Shown: positions 3,160-55,462 of the stretch, one piece after another
Layout: every line of letters begins with the position of its first letter
How positions within the stretch are numbered: the stretch's first letter is position 1
Assembly: GCA_021234155.1 (NCBI GenBank)
Contig: JAJEKV010000237.1
Location: 496,001-560,000 of the forward strand
Length of the DNA: 64,000 nucleotides
Reading direction: 5' to 3'
From: Isoetes taiwanensis
Lineage: Eukaryota; Streptophyta; Lycopodiopsida; Isoetales; Isoetaceae
Made by a program: the position numbers and the translations under genes
Notes under the pieces: generated by a model
The model's database searches: none
What the model saw: only the letters and a program-made list of their open reading frames with translations
What the model was told of the DNA's origin: nothing

Positions 3160-4010
3160 GCTAAACTGAAGTGTCCACTAGAGAGATAGTTGTGTCTTGA
3201 TTCTCTTTGCTCTGTGATTTACAAGTGAAGTAGAACACACTACTCAACATACAATCAACCAAGCTGATAAATGTGTACATCCCTATAAGAAGGGGGGCTT
3301 CCCACATCTTTGAAGCCGCATCTATCTTATAACCGTATCCAGGCACCCCAATCATCCTGTACTGGAATAAACTGTCCACAGATGCCATGCTTAAATTGTT
3401 CACGACAAACAGAAGAATGAGTTCTTCCTTTCACCAAAGCATAGGCTCTAGACAGTGCCTCCACACCATAGCAATCTTCTAATATAGATATTACAAGTGA
3501 CAGATTGCACACAATCATGAAATGAGCAAATGCCACAGAAAATATTATGGCAACCATCACAAATGCGAGGAAAAACATCTTGATTGTAAAAACAACCAAT
3601 CCTATGAACAGAGCAATAGAAATAAGGAATTGAAATAGTATGATACAGATCCAGAAATATGTTGTTGCAAGTCTCTTCCACAATTTGGGAACATTAGAAA
3701 GAAATCTCAAAAACACCAATCTTCTGCCAGTATAGGCCATTGCAACTCCACAAGAAACCATTAATTTGGCAGTTAAGCCAAACAGTACAAAAAAGGGCAA
3801 TTGGAATGTATTGGCCACAATGTTCTCTGGAACTTTGACATAAAAGATCCTGAATGATGGAGTAAACCAAAACCCTTGTGATGTAGCAATAAGTTCTAAC
3901 TTGCTTGCCGAATACCTGCCGGTTGTTACTGGTGCTTCTTGACCTCTTCAATCTGCTTCTGCAAGACCTCACAGAAATAAGGGAAGAGGATGGGAATCCC
4001 CACCACAATA
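3160..4010 (-). pseudogene. Multipass plant membrane protein pseudogene (polytopic family with 'PK.WKRL' and 'ILED.YG' motifs)
   Basis: Three minus-strand ORF pieces in different frames together resemble one plant polytopic membrane protein. The N-terminal part (about 3830-4010) is frameshifted. The central part (3327-3818) has hydrophobic segments separated by 'LSNVPKLWKRL' and a 'LSLVISILEDCYGVEALSRA' stretch followed by 'LVKGRT'. These motifs recur in a family of uncharacterised plant membrane proteins. The last part (3161-3403) shifts frame again and carries 'LLIGMYTFISLVDCMLSSVF' and 'CKSQ', resembling that family's last membrane helix. At least two frameshifts break the frame and no intron fits at those points, so I call it a pseudogene. 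The molecular function of the family is unknown to me. An alternative is a live gene with unrecognised introns or sequence errors. Confidence 0.6.
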
Positions 4011-13642: not shown

Positions 13643-16318
13643 TTTTTTTTTGAGGGACGTCAAGAATTTATATTATGTAAAGAAGAAAATACACAGGGAA
13701 GGATTAGATGAGGTGGAAATAATCCCCCCAAATCCTATCCTTCTCCTCACCTGGTAAGTTAGAGACTTGAAATTGATTATATAGCCTAGACTTGACTTCT
13801 TGGAGCAAAGATTGAGCAGTAGAGAACTTCCCATGAAAGATGACCTGGTTCCTTCTCTTCCAGATTACCCAACAAATGATAGCTCTACAAATGTTGAAGG
13901 CGACCTTCTTAACACGAGGCCAATTAGTTGGAAGAAGACCCAACAATACTTGTTGGCTACTAAGGCGATGTCGAAAACATGACCGTGTCCATGCCCAAAT
14001 ACATTGAATGTCGGCACAAAGGTAGAAGCAATGCTCAATGGTTTCCGGCACAATTACAAACCCGCAGAGTGGGCTTATTGTCGGCTTGAATGAGTGAACT
14101 TTAGTATTCGGCCCTAAGTGCACGATGCTTAATCCGCAGAGAAGAACTGGACCGCTTGGGAGGGATACTCTTACACCAAATGGAGCTCCAAACCTTCACA
14201 TATTGATCCTCTTCCACCCTAAGCCGCCAGTGGGAAGAAGGTGGCCGGGCCCGGAAGCCGCCGATATGCATAGCTACTCTTGACAAAGTTTTTGCCAAAC
14301 AAACTGGTGGGGGTAAGCACCAAACCCTCCTCCGTAGCAAAATTGGGGACCAGAGGAATGTTATCCGCAATCGCCCGCACAGAGAAGTCGCACCAACGCA
14401 TGCCAAACTTACGATCAAAACCATCCCATGAAAGGAGACGACCATTCTCATACCACGCCTCCAAAGAAATGACTCCAGCAGCCCTCCATCTACGCTTGGT
14501 AGCAGGGTGCATAGTAGCAGCGATGGGGAGATGAGGCATGGGAACCCACAAGAAAGGAGAAGAGGTCTGGGACCAATTGGCAGGATGAAGGGAAATGAGA
14601 GGCCTAACTGCATCCCAAGCTTTAAGCAGTCCCTTCAATAATGGAGAGGCCTGAGGAGTGGGAGCAAGGGGATACAATAAAGCCCAAGGCAAAGGGGGTT
14701 CAATACCTAATTTACCAAGAGCTCGCGGAGTGCCGCAGACCGAGCAATAAGACGTGTGCCTGAAGACCGATGATCATTGCAAATAACTTGCCAGATAAGT
14801 TTAGAAGCCAGCAGCTTGCCATGTAGAGCTAGATCAAGCATCCCCAAGCCGCCATGGTTCTTAGGGCGGACACACTTACTCCATGCAACTTTAACTACCG
14901 CCCCCAACTCATTACCGCCCCATATGAAATTACGCACAAGTGCAGCCATCTCCTTGAACTTACTAGCGGGTGCAAGAAGCGCGGAGACCGCATAAATGTG
15001 AGTACTGCAGAGCACTGACTTAGCCACCTGTATCCTGCCTGCCATTGACAAAGAAGCTCCTCGCCACCATAGGAGGTGCCTCTGAAGACCCAATAAGACT
15101 TGATCCCATGCCTGGGCTAGAGAAACGTCCATACCAAAAGGGATTCCGAGTAATCTAGTCACCTCCCCAGCTGGTATGACTTGCCATGGGTAGCAGTACA
15201 AGCAATTGGGGGGAGGAGTGTCTAGAGCCCAGATTGCACTACATTTTTGCCAATTGAGCAAGCACCCTGAAGCCAGAGAGAAGATATCCAGGAGCTGCTT
15301 AGCTTTATCAAGGTTGTCCTCATTAGCCTTTAGTAAGAGAAATGTGTCATCTGCAAACTGATTACAGATAACTTGAGAACCATCCGCCAACTGCAAACCC
15401 TCAATGAGGTCATCATTTAAAGCACGACGAAGAAGCTGAGATAAACCTTCAGCCACAATGGTAAATAGGAATGGAGCTAGGGGGCAGCCCTGCCTAATGC
15501 CCCTACTCACAGAAAATATCCGCGAAGGCTCACCCTGGAACAGGACCGCTGCTTTGGCAGAACATAGGAGCTTCCACACAAGAGAGCAAAAGGATGGTCC
15601 AAAACCCAACCTAGGCATGATCCTCAAAAGAAAATCCCAGGAAACACTGTCATACGCTTTGGCAAAATCCGGCCAGATATGCGACTGCTGTTTGGAGGCA
15701 CGTGCCCAATACATTCCCTCATATATTTGTTGCAACATTGTTCAAGATGTGTCCGCCTCGGTAGGAAACCCGCTTTGCTCCTCACCGATTGAAGTGCCAA
15801 GAATAGCTTTGAGTTTCTCAAAGATAAGCTTTAGCAATAATCTTGTAAACCACGGCAACAAAGTGATCGGCCTCCACGAGATATATTTCGAGGCTCCTTA
15901 ACCTTAGGGATGAGGGCAATTAAGCCAGTGTTCAAAATTCTATCCAATTGGTGAGACTGCAAGAGCTCCTGATATGCTTGCCAGACTAGAGTTGATGACC
16001 ATTCCCATGAAGCCTTGAAAAACTCAACTGGAATACCATCCATACCTGGACATTTGTCGTTAGCCATCATTTCTACAGCAGATTGAAGATTGTCAAGGGT
16101 GAGAGGAAGCTCCATCTCTAGTTGCTGCGTTGGGGAAATAATAGGTTGGAGCTTGGAAAGAACGATGCTCTTCGCTTCCTCCTGGAAAGGTAGGTTCTTT
16201 TCTTGAAAAAAGTGAGCAAAGTGTTCTGCTAAAAAAGTTTTAAGCTGGTTTGGATCAGTCACGCATTGACCATCAGATAATTGAATAGAGGATAGAGCTG
16301 ATCTTTGACGTTTCAAAC
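13643..16318 (-). mobile_element. 5'-truncated LINE (LINE B) with 19-bp target-site duplication
   Basis: Identical 19-bp copies of gagtatatccttggttagt flank the element at 13624-13642 and 16319-16337. The minus-strand 3' end is an A tail, seen as a T run from about 13643. The inserted DNA encodes only the RT and C-terminal part of ORF2, starting at about '.RLKRQRSALSS', so reverse transcription stopped early: a classic 5'-truncated target-primed insertion of 2,676 bp. The perfect duplication implies a younger insertion than LINE A. Confidence 0.93.
13704..16318 (-). pseudogene. LINE B ORF2 fragment: reverse transcriptase plus zf-RVT C-terminus
   Basis: RT motifs appear in order on the minus strand. 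A linker before the RT includes 'NDKCPGMDGIPVEFFKASW' (about 16010-16080). Motif A is 'DFAKAYDSVSWDF' near 15640, then 'GIRQGCPLAPFLF' near 15480. The catalytic 'FADDTFLLL' is near 15350, in an open stretch from 15738 to 14707. After a frame change the C-terminal zinc-binding zf-RVT region follows: 14219-14692, and 13704-14123 with 'TIEHCFYLCADIQCIWAW' and 'VIWKRRNQVIFHG'. ORF2 of an active LINE nicks DNA and reverse-transcribes its own RNA. Here the endonuclease is missing and at least two frame shifts split the rest, so it cannot move itself. Confidence 0.9.
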
Positions 16319-17549: not shown

Positions 17550-20435
17550 GGATGCATTCATGTCCTCTTGTCTTGGGGCTCCTATTTCTTTTCACCTCTC
17601 TCGTTCCTCCACTTATTCCATAATCCAGTGAGCTTCCTTTTGGTTAATCTCACTTGATCATCAAATAGCATGTGTGGCATCTGGTTACATATAATAATGT
17701 GCCATCATCATAGTCAGGCATGGTACAATTCACACCTCGTTATTGAGCTTAAAAAGGACTCGGGTGGTGAGATAGAGTATAGACCAAGGTAAGCATTACC
17801 AGTTAATAAATCTCGCCATTGTCTCATTTAAAAAAGGCAACATCTGCTTTGGGGATTTGTCTAGATAGTTCCCTATCATATAGTTGGGATATAGAACATG
17901 TCTCCACACTATTAGTGAATTAGAACCTTGCCATGACAGTCAAAGGGGTTTGTTCTTGGGACTTTTGAAGATCTCAATATGTTAAGCTCAACAAGTTCTG
18001 CTCCTTTTAAGCAAGTGATCTCATTTTGCCCTTTCAAAGTTTTGCTGGAGATTCTTGCTAAACTTGTGACTCTTTCAAGTCAACATTTACCTTACTTTGT
18101 TATTTACAATACCCCCAACAAGTAGGTTGTTGGTATGCTATAGCATGAGTATCTTTCGTATTCTGGCCATATAATAAGTAAGTATTCATATATGAGGTTA
18201 TTGCTCCTTAGATTGGGGTAAAACCCTGAATCAATTTAGGGTTGGGCCTAATATTAGATTGGTCATGCTAGATATATGGCAAATTCCACTTGGCCAATCG
18301 ATTCATGCCAAGTGGCATTTTAACAAAAGATAATTAATTAAGTTAGCTTAATTGTTAAGTTAGCTTAACTAATTATTTTCTATTATTATATTGTATAGCG
18401 TTGTATGTAGATAATGCGGACCTATAAATCCCTACCAGTATGCAACAACATCTAGATGCCTCCAACAATTTTTGCCAAAATACCTCTATGCAACTCAATT
18501 AGCCAAAGCTAAGGTTTTGGTCATTTTCTCTTGTAGGCAGCCAAGACCACCTCATTTCACATATGACGGTCAAACAATGGATGTGGCACAAACATCAAAC
18601 TAGCTTGGTATAGATTTTACGATCACTACGCACTGGAATACATGTATAAAAAAAAGGAGTCACTTCAGGTTGGAAGGCAATATGTAGCACAATAACAAAT
18701 GGTTTCATTTATATTTTTATCTGTTTTTCCCATGGTTTTTATATGATTTAATGATGGTATCTGATGAGACATACTAATTAGTACGTCTAGAGTGCCCATG
18801 CTATCACGTTATTTTTTGTGACATTTTCTAATGGTTACAACTATGATCACTAAATATCCCTAATCGAATATGCAAGCATCGAACAAGGTTATTGGGTTAT
18901 TTGAGTTTTGAAGGTTTTTGCTCCTATATATCCTTTCAGGTCTTGGGGCTTGGAGCGACCACGAAAGCAGGATCCGGCAGCATCCTTTCAGGTCTTGGTG
19001 AGGCAAGGGCGCAACCACGAAAGCAAGATTCGGCAACTTCAAGGTCTGTTCTTTAACCCTTTTTTCTATCTGCATGTCTATTTCTTTACGGGCAGGGCCT
19101 TAGATCTATTTTCTCTGGTTCCATGGTTCAGGTGCAGTTGGTGGCTAGCAGTAGGAAAGAAAATAACAGACCTCATATCCGCAAACCTCATGCCGGCAGT
19201 TACTGAGAGAAATGTATTTATGGGCCTTGTAAGTTCTGAAACCTCCAACACGTTACCATGCAGAATTATATGCACCTGCTGGCAGTTTGAATCAAAACAT
19301 TATTGATTGATTCCAAGTTTATGCCACCAGAGAAGATAATCAATTGCCTTCCCTGAATATTAAATCCAGGGGATAATCAGCTTAATGGATGTTCATATAT
19401 TGCAGAAGCAAGAACGCCTCACTTTCAGTTTCCCACAATATTCTGCAGAGCAATTAAAAACAAACTTCTGATCGAATATAGAAGTTGAAGCTTCTACTAA
19501 TGCTATCCTTACATTGCTTATAGCTAACTTCTGCAAACTTCCGCATAATTAATAGGCCCGCAAACACAATGAGTAGGTCAACTCTATCACTCATTCTGCC
19601 TTGAAAGCATCTCTTATGTAAAGTTCGGAATCCTGCTTATAGTTCCATGAGACATAACTAGCCAATGCCACGTCGAAAGCCATAGATAAAGTTTTGGGAT
19701 ATTGCAATTCCCAGTATGGAAACGTTTCATTACAAGTCTGCAGAGTGGTAAGCTGCTCAATCTAAGCTCTGTATTTTGCAGCTTATGTGCTTGAAGGCAT
19801 GGTCATGCACTGATAACCAAAACACTTGCTAACATGCAATTTTGAATTTTTGGATTAAGACATGCCATTATTGCCCTTTATATTATGCTGGATAATTTAT
19901 ATTGTTAATCTGGAATCCCAGTGGATATGAATCTCAGATTTTGGAGAATAAGGCATCTCTGACATGGGACATAAGAAGTATGCAACTAAGGCTTCTATAA
20001 AGTTGCATTTCCATGGAGCAGATTAATGCTTGGTTTGAATTGCACAAAGTCCATGTGAATTCAAATTAAAACAACGGACAAGTTATATCCATCCGTGTTT
20101 GTGGTATGTATGCTTGCTCAATGTCATATAGGAAAGCATATATATCTTTTTCCTAATAAACCTATTACGGGCTATATGGCTATCTTCTGGAGCAGACTAA
20201 ATTTAGGTAATGATGGAGCTTTCAGACATTGCACATTTAGCACATTGGCAGATGCTTGGATCACAAGCAACATTGCAATTTATGAGAATATAATACATTA
20301 CTTATTTATTGTTATTTTACTACATGTTGGAGAAAGTGTACTGTAAAACTTATCTTGTCAACTCTGAATATTGCATTGTAAAAAGACATAGAGGTTTTAT
20401 AGTTCTACACAAGGTATGTTGCTATCTCTTTATTT
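17550..20435. other. No gene recognised; AT-rich DNA
   Basis: Only short non-homologous ORFs occur. One local 52-bp duplication (18930-19034) is listed separately. Confidence 0.45.
18930..19034. repeat. 52-bp tandem duplication, two copies
   Basis: Copies start at 18930 and 18982 with ATCCTTTCAGGTCTTGG and both contain ACCACGAAAGCA. They have diverged by several substitutions. Confidence 0.8.
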
Positions 20436-20660
20436 CCCTAAGGGCTCGAAGAGCCCAATTTTTTTTTTAAAAATATAGCAACCAACACATAACTACTGTT
20501 AACATTAATTAACACAAACTAGTACATCCAACAATTCTAAATTAAAATCCCCCTAAAACCCCTTTCGGTTTGGGTGTATATTCACACGAGGGATGACGTA
20601 GGATAGCGAGAGCCCTTAAAACCATATAATACATGTACAAAATTGATACCATTCAGTACA
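20436..20660 (-). repeat. Interspersed repeat R1, copy 1
   Basis: Read on the minus strand it matches the repeat at 50985-51150 plus 55410-55462. It begins with TTTGTACATGTATTATA, continues through GTGTGAATATACACCCAAACC and GGGGGATTTTAATTTA, then TAGTTATGTGTTGGTTG and an A run. It ends in a GC-rich hairpin (GGGCTCTTCGAGCCC here, GGGCCCTTCGGGCCC in copy 2). Non-coding; class unknown, perhaps a short non-autonomous element. Confidence 0.75.
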
Positions 20661-20819
20661 TTGCCTCAAACCTTATAGTATTTTGCAAACCTCTTTATAC
20701 AGTATTTCAAAATTTGTACAAGCAACCCCACAAACGAGGATCGTTGTCTATGGTCAAGATCAAGGAATAAAGGGCAAATATGTCCATCCGGCATCTCTTG
20801 ATGCCCGGAGCAAATCTAT

Positions 20820-50984: not shown

Positions 50985-51150
50985 GGTTTGGTTTGGTTTG
51001 TACATGTATTATAAGTTTTTAGGGGCTCTCGCTACCCCCCGTGTGAATATGCACCCAAACCAAAGGGGGTTTCAGGGGGATTTTAATTTAAAATTGTTAG
51101 ATGTAATGGTTTGTGTTAAGTAGTTATGTGTTAGTTGTTATCTTAAAAAA
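50985..51150 (+). repeat. Interspersed repeat R1, copy 2, left part
   Basis: Matches copy 1 (20436-20660, inverted) from TTTGTACATGTATTATA up to the A run before its terminal hairpin. It is interrupted at 51150 by a 4.3-kb insertion; its missing end lies at 55410-55462. Confidence 0.82.
51120..51150. repeat. 31-bp target-site duplication, left copy
   Basis: Identical over 31 bp to 55410-55440, beginning GTAGTTATGTGTTAGTTGTT. It belongs to repeat R1, whose continuation appears only after the right copy, so it is a duplication of the target and not two R1 insertions. Confidence 0.88.
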
Positions 51151-51327
51151 TTTTTACAAAATACTTGCTAGGGTCTAATCTAGCAAATACTATACTTCAA
51201 GAACTAAACCTAGTTAGAAATTGAGAATTTGTCTGTCCTGGTTTAAACCAGGCCCACGTCCTTCATCTGGCATACACATATGGTGAGGTATTACCCCTAG
51301 CATTCTCTAGTACAAGCCAAATTAAAG

Positions 51328-51900
51328 GTTCACATAGTAGAGGGCTGAGATTCCAAACCCCAAGACTATGCAGCCCCAAAGCATTGGCCCAAATACATGA
51401 TACAGCATTACACCTAGCATTCTCTCGTCAAGGCCAAATTACTGGTTCACATAGTAGAGGGCTGAGATTCCAAACCCCATGACAATGTAGCCCCAAAGCA
51501 ATGGCACAGATATATGGCAAGGCATTACACCAAGAGTTCTACAACAGTAAATAATTTGTGGAATAAGCTGCCGCAAGGTGTTATTCCCAAGGTAAATTAC
51601 TAGTTAAAGTCATGTAGAGGGAGTACACAATAGGGAGCTGAATCTTCAAACCCCAATACTAAGTAACCCCACACTTAACTCACAGATATATCAACAAAGC
51701 GTTGAACGTTTAAATAGATAAACTCTACTGTAGTGCAATGAACATTTAGAATCAGGATTTAAATAGACGTGTTTTTTCAGAGTAGATTACTAGTAAAAGT
51801 CATGTAATGGGAGCACATAATAGGGAGCTGAATCTTCAAACCCCAATACTAAGTAAACCCACTCTTGACTCACAAATATATCAACAAAGCATTGAACAAA
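51328..51900. repeat. Degenerate tandem repeats in the 3' region of the RT element
   Basis: GGTTCACATAGTAGAGGGCT units start at 51328 and 51444 (116-bp period). More diverged copies with GGGAGCTGAATCTTCAAACC begin at about 51594 and 51784 (190-bp period). All keep the order 'AGGG.GCTGA..TTC.AAACCCCA'. Confidence 0.8.
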
Positions 51901-53360
51901 AGGCATGACCTCCAATGATTCCACGAAAAAAGGAGGTTAAATATCCTCAAAACCTTGTTTACCAAGTGGAATCAATATGGCAAATTTGTTAGTATCCGTG
52001 ATAAAAAAAGGATATATGAATATTAACATCCTTAGAGGTGACCCTCGGGCTGTGAGATGAGGAATCAGACCCCAAACATGTGGTTTTAAGGTTCCTTTAT
52101 CAGACCAGTAGTTCAACAGTGTATACTAGCACTATCTCTCATTAGTATAGGCAGTTGGTAAATTTTTGGCACAAAGGAGACTCAAAAGGTTAGAGTTGGA
52201 CCATGATTCCATAAGCAATAAAGCCATTATAATCAGTTTATGACTTTTAAGGATGATCCCATCTAAGTAGTGAAGATGAACACAACAACTGGAGAAACAC
52301 AGTTTTCATAACCTTTTTTTTACAAAATTGTTTTTCAATTTTTTGTTTTCTGATACATTCCCTTCTAGCTATAGATCTAGAAGTCAATCCTACAAAAGCA
52401 GGCCGGATTCCAAATAATATGGCCATGTAAGACAAACTGTAGCAGTGTATTCAAAACGTGCATCACTAAAAATCAAATTGCTTCCTTAAGTTTTTTCGGA
52501 AAAGAGAACAAGATACTAAAGTTATCTGCATAAGAAGATGAATAGTTTCTTGTTGCAGATTGTCAGATCTGCATTCCATTTCAGAAGTACTCCAAAGATA
52601 TGTGTAGCCCAAAAACCTTCAAAGGTAGGTTTGCCAAGTTACCTGCAGCCAAACCAGTCACACGTTAGCCTGAAAAGGGTAAGCATGAAGTAGCTAGCAG
52701 GTAAGCGCAGACAAACCATGTTTTTATCCGTTTCCTTAAAGTATGAGCAAAAAAGCATTTATTTACATAAGCTGAGGGTCTATCTCCCTTTGTTAATAAA
52801 CCAGAGTGGAAGGGATTAAGCCTCTAGTCAATAAGAGATTAGAAATACCACCTTAGCATAATCATGTCCAATCATTAGCAAAGTTTGAGAAAACTTAACA
52901 GATTTGCCCTCATCATTTTTGCTTGTAATGGCAGCATAACTTACTGTCTAATATTTATGATGTAACAAAAACAGCATATTGACCATGCCAGAAACCCAGT
53001 ATATGCTTAGATTTTACAGGTGATTTCTGATCAGAGCTGGTCTGATGAATCAGTAGTTCAACAATTATCTAAGTCTAATTTATCATGCAGTAAAGTATTA
53101 TAAATTTCTGCTGGTGTTATGGTAAGACTATGTGAATGAATCCCTAGCTGGGAACGGTAAACAAAAACTGAGTATAAGTTGTTAAACTGGTTCTGATCTG
53201 TACAATCATGATTTCCAGCATGGTTAATAGCCTATCTATTATTAAGCTGAATCAATATTTCCGCTTTGTATGAAGAGAAACTTGAAACTAAGTAAAAGTA
53301 GTTAAGCTGGTTTTGAACTATTTATACATGACTTCAAGCATGGTCTAGTATAAAGCCTGA

Positions 53361-53790
53361 TCAATATTTCCGCATTAACATTATATATGAAAAAACCTGA
53401 GTTTGATCGTCTCCAGGGTTAACTGCGGCATCCATATTGGCGTTCAGGTCCATCACAGTCGGATTGTTGTAGACTGGTTCAGTATTTTCCAAGTTGGAAG
53501 CACGCATGTTAGCATTTCGAATAAGAAACCTCTTGATTATGTTTGCTGCCTGTGCATTCCGGTTTTGGCCAGGGGAAGAAGGACGTCTTGGCCCCATCTG
53601 AATGCCTCTTCCCCTAATGTTCCTCGCTCTAGGAGGGCGTCCAGGACCACGTTTTTGTCCCATTGTTTTGAAAAGCAGAGTTAGTAGCAGAGTGATCACA
53701 AAGGCGCCGGATACGCTGATTTCCTTAGACAATGGAATGCAAAAATGGGTGTTCAAGAAAAATCGTATGTCTCCAGATGTCCTTCCCGCC
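53361..53790 (-). CDS. Hypothetical membrane-anchored Arg/Gly-rich ORF in the RT element
   Basis: An open minus-strand frame of about 140 codons encodes a hydrophobic segment 'SGAFVITLLLTLLFKTM', then a basic 'GQKRGPGRPPRARNIRGRGI' stretch and an Asn-rich part with 'MDLNANMDAAVNPGDDQTQ'. It is open at the 5' side without an ATG, and begins just after a pyrimidine-A-G acceptor-like site (TTTTTAG). The last residues lie at a CTCAG|GTTTTT donor-like site, so it may be an internal exon. 'GRPPR' resembles AT-hook or RNA-binding basic motifs. I do not recognise it. Whether it belongs to the RT transcript is unproven: the phases I can draw from the RT exon do not join directly. Confidence 0.35.
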
Positions 53791-54592
53791 TAAAAATTTT
53801 ACCATTAAAGTCTTACCAAACCCCATTAATGTGAGGTGTACTGTTGTCAGGGATTTGCTGCGACCCAACAATCCAAATGGGAATAAAGATTATCCTGCTG
53901 CCTCAAGGTGTTACAGTAGAAATAATCTACCATTAGTATTTCCTATTATAAAGGTTCCATGTATAGTCATCCAAGTTTCAAAAAGGGACCATGGATTGTA
54001 AAGAAAAAAACTATTATGCATATCAGTGCCAGTATGTTAAGTGTTACTCTAGGTCACAAGCATCAAGAAACTTGCGCAAGTTCTAAGCATATATTTTTTG
54101 GAAACCTTTATGCATCAAGCATTTTGATACCAGCTCAAAGTTTCACTATTGGGGCAACTCAATAATTAGAGTGGAAGGCTGGAACAAAGCCTGTAGCTTC
54201 TAAGGTAATCAAGAGTGAAATCTACCTGACACCATCGTTTATTATTGGGTCTTATTTTATGTCCGAATTTATCGTCTCCCAACCAATTATATGACGAAAT
54301 GTGTGAGGTCGGTCAAAGGGATGATATGTGTCTTGAGTAGCTGGTTAAGCACAGTTTGAGAACAACCACAGGGTTTCTAGAACACCACCTGGATGAGGGA
54401 GTGCGTGAAGCCGACGCTTCAAAAATTAAACCTACCTCCTGCCGCTAGCAGAAAGGGTCCATAGTTATTAAAGCAATTTATTGCTAGGCTGAGTAGGTAA
54501 GGTGCCTAGCAATGTTGCTAGGACCCTACTCAGCTAGTAAGATGTGTTAAAAGACCGAGCTCAACAAAAATTATAACCATTATGTCTAGCTG

Positions 54593-55408
54593 TTAAGACA
54601 AACGCATTCGGTTAAACAGATCATGTAAAGTGATAGTGAAATACCTGTGATATAGGTGTTTGATAACCTCTTTGGGATTGTATGCCAGTCCAGGAAAGTC
54701 CTGCTTCAGTATCTTGCATACGTTTCCAAGAATTGTTTTTTCATCGAACCCATTTTCAATAAATTGGGCTATGATGCATTTCAGATCTGTAGCACTAATA
54801 CAGTTGCTGTTTACGTAAAGACACGGCATCACTTGAGAGCAAATTACCTTACTAGCTTGAAAATAAGGTCTGCATCCGTCTGCCATGATGAATCTTTTTG
54901 CTTTGAAAGGTAGGGCATCCCTCTTGTCATACTTGTACGTACAATAACTCCCCAATGAGGCATCCAAAATCCTGATTTGCATATTTAGGAAGGAGGCAGA
55001 GGTACCAATTCTGCTGTACTCATCATAACCAATGAAGTCCTTAGTTTCTTCTTTGATTTCAATAAAGTTGAGATTATAAAGCCAAATATCCTTGTCTTTA
55101 TCAAAAAACTCTTTTGGGTTGCCACAGTTAATAAGTAGGAGATCGTCCATATATCTAAAGGACTGTCGGAATCTCGCAATGTCTGAATAACGGCCTTCAT
55201 CTGCTAGTTTAAGTATGAAATTGACTTCATACCATGCCAGATAAATATTACACCAGCTGGGTGAGCAGGAGAAGCCCATGGGTATGCCGCAGATCTGTCT
55301 CCAAGTTCTATCATCATTACATAACCAGCAGTTTTTTATTAACCATACATTCATGTCCACCAAGTTTTTGCAGGTCATTTCCTTCCAACAATCTGGCTGC
55401 TTACTCTT
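54593..55408 (-). CDS. Reverse transcriptase, atypical (Penelope-like or unclassified), 5'-truncated
   Basis: One uninterrupted minus-strand frame from the element's 5' edge to TAA encodes about 270 residues. The first ATG is at 55378, but coding similarity continues upstream ('KSKQPDCWKE'), so the true start is missing. Motifs: 'WRQICGIPMGFSCSPSWCNI' (fingers/palm motif B region, where Penelope-type RTs have 'G.AMGSPLSP'), then 'FRQSFRYMDDLLLIN' with the catalytic YMDD. Next come a 'LNFIEIKEETKDF' strand and a 'ASFLNMQIRI' block equivalent to 'FLD..I' in Penelope and telomerase-like RTs. Then come 'YKYDKRDALPFKAKRFI' and a C-terminal 'FIENGFDEKTILG' resembling the 'L...GYP...I' tail of such RTs. 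Motif A and the upstream fingers are absent. No endonuclease is visible. The intact frame suggests recent arrival or constraint. The exact RT clade needs a phylogeny. Confidence 0.75.
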   Translation of the reverse strand, partial: KSKQPDCWKEMTCKNLVDMNVWLIKNCWLCNDDRTWRQICGIPMGFSCSPSWCNIYLAWYEVNFILKLADEGRYSDIARFRQSFRYMDDLLLINCGNPKEFFDKDKDIWLYNLNFIEIKEETKDFIGYDEYSRIGTSASFLNMQIRILDASLGSYCTYKYDKRDALPFKAKRFIMADGCRPYFQASKVICSQVMPCLYVNSNCISATDLKCIIAQFIENGFDEKTILGNVCKILKQDFPGLAYNPKEVIKHLYHRYFTITLHDLFNRMRLS

Positions 55409-55409
55409 T

Positions 55410-55462
55410 GTAGTTATGTGTTAGTTGTTATCTTAAAAAAAATTTGGGCCCTTCGGGCCCTA
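55410..55462 (+). repeat. R1 copy 2, right part, with right TSD and terminal hairpin
   Basis: 55410-55440 duplicates 51120-51150. Then follow AATTT and the hairpin GGGCCCTTCGGGCCC ending CTAAC, the expected R1 terminus. Confidence 0.85.

Follow-up and report, generated by a model that had tools for sequence, protein, structure and literature searches.

Penelope-like elements (PLEs) are retrotransposons which, in those parts of the literature that were accessible, either carry a GIY-YIG endonuclease or, where this is missing, are associated with telomeres. Chlamys and Naiad, reportedly described by Craig and colleagues in 2021, are said to be PLEs with an N-terminal GIY-YIG domain and a CxC motif; their reverse transcriptase (RT) carries an insertion-in-fingers domain. 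Among other retroelements, site-specific elements without long terminal repeats (non-LTR elements), such as R2 or Tx1, combine a fixed target, which may be a mobile element, with a fixed 3′ end and 5′ truncation. In this study, a stretch of 64,000 nucleotides from the quillwort Isoetes taiwanensis (assembly GCA_021234155.1, contig JAJEKV010000237.1, positions 496,001 to 560,000; hereafter referred to as the window) was analyzed for an insertion at positions 51151–55409 that encodes an unusual RT. With a probability of roughly 70%, it is considered to be a dead, 5′-truncated copy of a Penelope-type retrotransposon family, the members of which would form head-to-tail units, use leader splicing, and insert by target-primed reverse transcription at a hairpin-flanked tract.

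The family shares pseudo-LTRs, partial tandems, inverted tails, 5′ truncation, introns, and an open reading frame (ORF) start inside the pseudo-LTR with PLEs, as far as these are covered by the accessible parts of two publications (PMC3846280, PMC11167929). It differs from them in that no GIY-YIG domain was found near the RT and a separate ORF1 is present; moreover, a whole exon of approximately 90 amino acids (aa), probably spliced, resides in the pseudo-LTR, long target-site duplications (TSDs) occur at one fixed site, and no hammerhead ribozyme was found. Such a ribozyme is common, yet not universal, in PLE pseudo-LTRs. With Chlamys and Naiad, the Isoetes element has the CxC motif ahead of the RT core and the presence in lycophytes (spike mosses in the case of the former) in common, whereas its N-terminal partner is a predicted AT-hook-like exon instead of GIY-YIG, and ORF1 is additional. 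Like R2 and Tx1, it has a fixed target, a constant 3′ end, and 5′-truncated copies; in contrast to them, it features a pseudo-LTR organization and no known endonuclease, and the RTs, compared by PDB sequence search only, gave no match. Most likely, this represents a Penelope-type organization that is new in the lack of a detectable GIY-YIG, the separate ORF1, the probable spliced leader, the strict target in the clade of the window copy, and a conserved RNA element. Among the papers listed in a literature search that reached few subscription papers, no title pointed to a Penelope-type element from Isoetes, and the word Penelope is not present in the I. taiwanensis genome paper (PMC8566536).

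The insertion and its family in the quillwort genome

The insertion limits given in the initial annotation were borne out. The element comprises 4259 bp on the minus strand, with its 3′ end at 51151, and is flanked by a 31-bp TSD (GTAGTTATGTGTTAGTTGTTATCTTAAAAAA), the two copies of which adjoin the 3′ end (51120–51150) and the truncated 5′ end (55410–55440) and match exactly over 31 bp. Likewise, the YMDD RT frame reported there was recovered on the minus strand at 54593–55409 as an open fragment of 272 codons that is cut off at its 5′ edge; it covers the end of the inter-motif region, GIPMG, YMDD, FLNMQI, and the C-terminal part, and contains GIPMGFSCSPSWCNI and FRYMDDLLLIN. The statement that this frame is uninterrupted unlike every frame of the long interspersed nuclear elements (LINEs) in the window had to be corrected, since 344 codons lie open from stop to stop in the FADD-type LINE (14707–15741).

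Further copies, including fuller ones, were indeed present elsewhere in the genome. At least 82 matches were obtained for the window element (40 of 761 first-look candidates scored), many of them having a common 3′ end and differing in their 5′ extent, and the 3′-terminal 136 bp were detected at 40 scored places with identities of 96–100% (261 first-look candidates). For the family analysis, 14 loci of 10 kb were fetched (C1025 and C1065 correspond to L016 and L013, respectively, with more flanking sequence). Fuller copies encode ORF1 (approximately 530–610 aa) and an RT ORF (approximately 710 aa), for which at least 81 matches with identities down to 29% (77 of 3183 candidates scored) and at least 63 matches spanning identities of 41–100% (62 of 4565 candidates scored) were found, respectively. 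In 29 of the 63 RT matches, no stop interrupts the sequence and the open frame reaches 617 aa or more, one short second piece of a stop-containing place being excluded, and an ORF1 match was located within 6 kb at 31 of the 63 RT places.

Ratios of nonsynonymous to synonymous substitution rates (dN/dS) between L013 and L016 were 0.13 for the RT and 0.12 for ORF1. The near-identical pair L019/L017, having few changes, yielded 0.37 for ORF1, and most other pairs were saturated at silent sites, with ratios of the corresponding proportions of differences (pN/pS) between 0.16 and 0.50. Because of the at least 82 genome matches and the strong purifying selection on RT codons between copies, the RT element of the window is not a product of chance. 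The family is large, diverse, and recently active in the quillwort genome.

Intact and selected ORFs at high divergence would also be expected from a virus-derived or host-domesticated RT gene family that is not a mobile element. However, copies that are truncated, flanked by TSDs, and terminated by a common 3′ end, the high identity of the 40 scored 3′ ends, and pseudo-LTRs that are up to 99% alike make this explanation scarcely credible. A viral origin was also dismissed because protein searches, alignments, and motif patterns revealed no relatives of RT or ORF1 in viral_contigs, and kinship with phage RTs was dropped, the only matches being to retrons at E 0.5.

Self-comparison of the loci was applied to search for pseudo-LTRs. 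Direct repeats flanking the coding part were identified in C1025 (2350 bp, 99.5% identity), C1065 (3.5 kb, 96.7%), L017 (at least 1.6 kb, 99.2%), L012 (at least 847 bp, 96.7%), L020 (at least 821 bp, 92.7%), and C1100 (at least 725 bp, 99.3%); furthermore, C1025 possesses an inverted tail, and L022 is rearranged. In L012, L013, L016, L017, L019, and L020, the 3′ end of an upstream copy abuts the common 5′ start, beginning with ATTTTTATGAAGCTTCTG. The earlier description of the insertion as being without LTRs consequently holds for the truncated window copy and fails for the other copies, which carry long pseudo-LTRs. The Penelope-like affinity suggested at first is supported by this architecture: pseudo-LTRs and head-to-tail partial tandems (each seen in some of the loci), the inverted tail, 5′ truncation with TSDs, exons bounded by splice sites, and a coding start (an exon with ATG and a phase-0 donor, predicted to be spliced) inside the pseudo-LTR are all PLE features, whereas the GIY-YIG partner sought was not found near the RT.

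Reverse transcriptase relationships and the insertion target

The Pfam model RVT_1 matched the RT fragment of the window weakly (E 0.0006; 20 bits compared to a cut-off of 29.6), and weak scores were obtained for all ten RT members. A PDB sequence search returned no real match for RT or ORF1, and the AlphaFold prediction of the window fragment without an alignment reached a mean predicted local distance difference test score (pLDDT) of 36.6. The CxC motif precedes the RT core, both cysteines being invariant in all ten aligned RTs. An RT profile based on the ten-row alignment matched, with 27.8 bits and E 9e-9 over 62 aa, a decayed RT residing in a contig from the metagenome-assembled genome (MAG) of a mussel symbiont, compared to a best E of 1.6 among 200 shuffles. 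This contig (L048), which was located by a pattern built on animal RT motifs, carries a decayed animal-like RT that we take to be of the Naiad type and that is probably host contamination.

A non-LTR retrotransposon of the LINE type whose RT is very diverged would account for 5′ truncation, TSDs, the absence of a visible integrase, and the weak RVT_1 match. Nevertheless, LINEs do not feature pseudo-LTRs or head-to-tail units whose start exon lies at the 3′ end, and BLAST with the LINE RT of the window against the element RT gave a best E of 2.1, which is no more than chance. The RT profile matched neither this LINE RT nor the copia RT of the window. Placement within a known plant LINE clade, as judged against the one LINE RT of the window, was thus not observed, and a LINE-like origin appears very improbable.

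Out of the 40 scored 3′ ends, 25 were examined and 24 had readable flanks (L049 was left uncounted, although its start resembles the target). Sixteen of these 24 flanks consist of the same repeat ending in an A/T tract, four of a related tract (L004, L007, L061, and L066), and four of tandem junctions (L052, L053, L062, and L065); unrelated flanks did not occur. The flanks are partly non-independent, with L052, L053, and L062 lying in one C1054 region and L004 and L007, with near-identical flanks, in one C918 region. As the 24 flanks were picked by similarity to the 3′ end of the window copy, they sample one subfamily. Eight of the 14 fetched loci, representing several diverged subfamilies, likewise have this target at their right ends, the others being unreadable by the motif used.

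A hairpin, GGGCCCGAAGGGCCC (GGGCCC), adjoins the target tract; in the window, it is represented by GGGCCCTTCGGGCCC at 55446–55460 beside the insertion tract and by a second hairpin (20442–20456) within an unoccupied paralogue of the target repeat (20337–20813). A strict pattern of hairpin plus T tract had 576 genome matches, a few places being counted twice, versus 0 for the reversed control. For the target repeat itself, 5321 first-look candidates were obtained, 40 of which were scored; the matches often end at the same points and recur inverted. Due to its high frequency, shared match endpoints, and inverted recurrence, the repeat, the halves of which are inverted, looks like a short inverted-repeat element resembling miniature inverted-repeat transposable elements (MITEs).

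Duplications starting in the same tract measure 31 bp (window), approximately 136 bp (L010, perfect), and approximately 240 bp (L019, one mismatch), the A/T tract leaving a doubt of a few bases in these lengths. In L011, L015, L018, and L021, the hairpin is joined to element sequence with few bases in between. One nick in the narrow tract combined with one variable, often distant nick explains the varied duplications. The possibility that the 31-bp TSD is no more than a repeat of the target was dropped because the duplication is exact, the duplications share the tract, and an unoccupied paralogue exists at 20442.

These findings bear on the proposal that the element is an endonuclease-deficient PLE of the Athena or Coprina type that exploits pre-existing breaks or exposed ends. 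Athena, Coprina, and Terminons likewise have two ORFs and no GIY-YIG, and endonuclease-deficient PLEs are listed for Selaginella, according to the source sections available (PMC6431247 for the two-ORF organization). In contrast to them, the Isoetes element lacks telomeric repeats and inserts site-specifically into an internal repeat: no telomeric arrays were found in 69 loci and the window (372 kb), and 17 RT places lie 0.24–20 Mb away from contig ends. Telomeric targeting was accordingly set aside as unsupported. In addition, insertions confined to one narrow tract are unexpected from passive use of breaks, and this proposal is therefore regarded as quite improbable.

Probable leader exon, ORF1, and the conserved RNA element

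The second ORF of the window element (53361–53789), already noted in the initial annotation, contains a basic exon, MGQKRGPGRPP...DDQTQ (53397–53663, minus strand), which is AT-hook-like by motif, has no Pfam match, and lies in the pseudo-LTR. By tblastn, this exon was detected in the window, C1100, and 12 of the 14 loci (all except L011 and L022), and was not found in C914. Damaged versions occur in L020 as well as in C1025 and C1065; in the latter two, the exon of the left repeat is intact and that of the right repeat is without its start. Where silent sites are unsaturated, its dN/dS ranges between 0.08 and 0.34.

The exon ends with AG|GT in phase 0 in all 14 copies examined (damaged copies excluded; the frame of C1056 was read by eye). 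For ORF1, four of the seven exons shown (L013, L016, L020, and C1100) have a readable phase-0 acceptor, CAG|, and six of the seven have a stop codon two bases ahead of a conserved donor (TAAAG|GT), C914 being different. According to a scripted scan, 8 of 11 copies have an RT exon that starts directly behind a CAG and in phase 0. No conserved ATG precedes the conserved part of ORF1 or RT in the copies compared. As the exon donor and the RT and readable ORF1 acceptors are all in phase 0, both ORFs probably obtain their start from the upstream repeat; since the exon sits in the pseudo-LTR, it precedes ORF1 and RT in head-to-tail units only. Reading frames and splice sites suggest that one leader exon is probably spliced alternatively to ORF1 or RT. 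The Adineta Penelope pseudo-LTR likewise includes the first ORF codons, as stated in the accessible part of the respective study (PMC3846280).

A GIY-YIG domain next to the RT, which had been proposed as a check, was not found. At least 121 genome matches to the Pfam GIY-YIG model were obtained (150 of 263 candidates scored), none of which was closer than 20 kb to any of the 63 RT or 81 ORF1 places, the nearest RT being 39.6 kb away; this search reads no introns, and an every-frame scan of each locus with the model was not made. The 121 matches suggest a separate repetitive mobile element with GIY-YIG. At L047, a GIY-YIG frame (3468–3815) adjoins, by eye, a Pif1-like helicase ORF (164–2443) and not an RT.

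A Chlamys/Naiad-type Penelope element with its GIY-YIG domain in a distant or very diverged exon that was missed has to be weighed at this point. The invariant CxC motif and the scope of the GIY-YIG search are in its favor. Chlamys elements also occur in spike mosses, a related lineage. Moreover, Ectocarpus carries PLE/Chlamys as well, as listed in the available part of the source. On the other hand, the distances of all 121 matches from RT and ORF1, the Pif1-like neighbor at the one GIY-YIG locus read, and the lack of any significant Pfam match for ORF1 in nine members argue against this possibility, which is considered unlikely.

ORF1 had no match of weight in Pfam, PDB, PHROG, NCBIfam, or PADLOC, and Pfam detected no endonuclease domain in ORF1 or RT, so that the APE or RLE domain known from LINEs was not seen. 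With no GIY-YIG detected in the vicinity of the RT, another factor is probably responsible for the site-specific nick. Cys, His, Asp, Glu, and Lys residues are invariant at certain positions of ORF1, and for this reason its Cys/His-rich protein is named as the first, still weakly founded, candidate for the nicking enzyme.

Between the leader exon and the 3′ end, the pseudo-LTR contains a structured element of 120 nt (52621–52740, minus strand, in the window), the rod-like fold of which is shared by 11 copies. It comprises 43 pairs, 13 of which are changed on both sides, with 96.0% of cells paired; none of 500 shuffles equaled the real alignment in even one of five measures, and slid versions were far lower. 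Folding of four single copies gave z-scores between −2.7 and −4.6, with 2, 0, 0, and 2 of 200 shuffles folding as well. A covariance model built from ten copies and run on 19 sources matched seven of them, namely two of its own members (window and L036), the close relatives L003, L012, L020, and L021, and L069 from a clade with 41% RT identity (33.9 bits, E 3e-5), where the match again lies past a small basic exon and leaves some bases unpaired. The short or unrelated pieces L031–L034 and L045–L048 gave no match. A second match in L021 (123–238, minus strand, 30.1 bits) perhaps belongs to another inserted element. In Rfam, no family of weight corresponded to the RNA element, the one chance match (E 4.8) being on the other strand, and a simple scan for hammerhead cores yielded one weak minus-strand candidate, in L022 only.

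The fold holds a donor-like GCAG|GTAAC paired with CTTACCTGC. Our guess is that it might serve in the recognition of the template RNA or in the control of its splicing. Being still recognizable at 41% RT identity, the structure offers a handle on template choice or splicing control.

Proposed life cycle and further features

The Penelope-type explanation preferred here would operate as follows. Active units would be arranged head to tail, the upstream partial copy (pseudo-LTR) supplying the promoter, the start codon, and the AT-hook-like exon of approximately 90 aa. Splicing of this leader to either the ORF1 or the RT exon would produce two proteins with the same basic N-terminus. New copies would arise by target-primed reverse transcription: a nick inside the A tract, on the strand ending there and beside the GGGCCC hairpin of the abundant inverted-repeat element, would provide the primer for cDNA synthesis from the 3′ end of the element. 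Cutting of the other strand a few to approximately 240 bp away would then generate duplications of varied length, and incomplete synthesis would lead to 5′ truncation. Many intact frames, together with the highly similar pseudo-LTRs, in one genome make this life cycle testable.

A more far-reaching view, which is held tentatively and with clearly less confidence, is that of a deep Penelope-type lineage in which GIY-YIG was replaced by a novel machinery for site-specific nicking, formed by ORF1 either alone or together with the RT. This lineage would recognize a hairpin in another transposable element, make long staggered cuts, produce two proteins from one leader by alternative splicing, and be controlled by a previously undescribed RNA structure with a sequestered donor-like sequence. 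If true, a dispersed, site-specific lineage without GIY-YIG would break the rule that Penelope elements have either this domain or a tie to telomeres, and would point to a new nicking enzyme coupled to a telomerase-like RT, which is of interest for targeted DNA writing.

Several observations weigh against the explanation preferred here. Splicing was deduced from the DNA sequence alone; the ORF1 acceptor is altered in L019, ambiguous in C914, and cut off in L018, and the scripted scan for the RT acceptor was empty for L012, L020, and L044 (3 of 11), L020 showing CAG| in phase 0 by eye. No ORF1 match was detected within 6 kb at 32 of the 63 RT places with the query used. Long pseudo-LTRs were not seen in the stretches read of L009, L010, L011, L014, L015, L018, and L021, and that of L019 is short (154 bp, apart from its target duplication). 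The RNA model did not match L009, L011, L022, or C914 (L035), Rfam found no hammerhead ribozyme in eight loci and the window element, and no nuclease was recognizable in ORF1. With respect to the RT, the PADLOC model for CRISPR-associated RTs reached E 1.9e-6 at best, which is weak like the RVT_1 scores, and the link to animal RTs consists of one decayed copy over 62 aa with a tentative family name. Finally, the deep-clade copy C1056 is situated, by eye, near a purine-rich tract and not at the hairpin target; the site specificity is therefore demonstrated for the clade of the window copy only. This copy (L069, 1–650) borders a long purine-rich, GGAAAA-like tract, and other clades may target simple repeats.

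The tandem repeats indicated in the initial annotation were likewise confirmed. The 3′ region of the window element contains two tandem 117-bp units (51268–51501) and two 116-bp repeats (51592–51707 and 51782–51897), and these repeats were found again in other copies. The last approximately 105 bp of the element are the most conserved 3′ segment among the copies and include a possible 3′-terminal stem-loop, TTGCTAG...CTAGCAA (51165–51186, minus strand), spotted by eye. Elsewhere in the window, two minus-strand frames at 1275–1931 and 3327–3947 resemble, by eye, plant host genes, namely a PLATZ-like gene and a membrane transporter gene, respectively.

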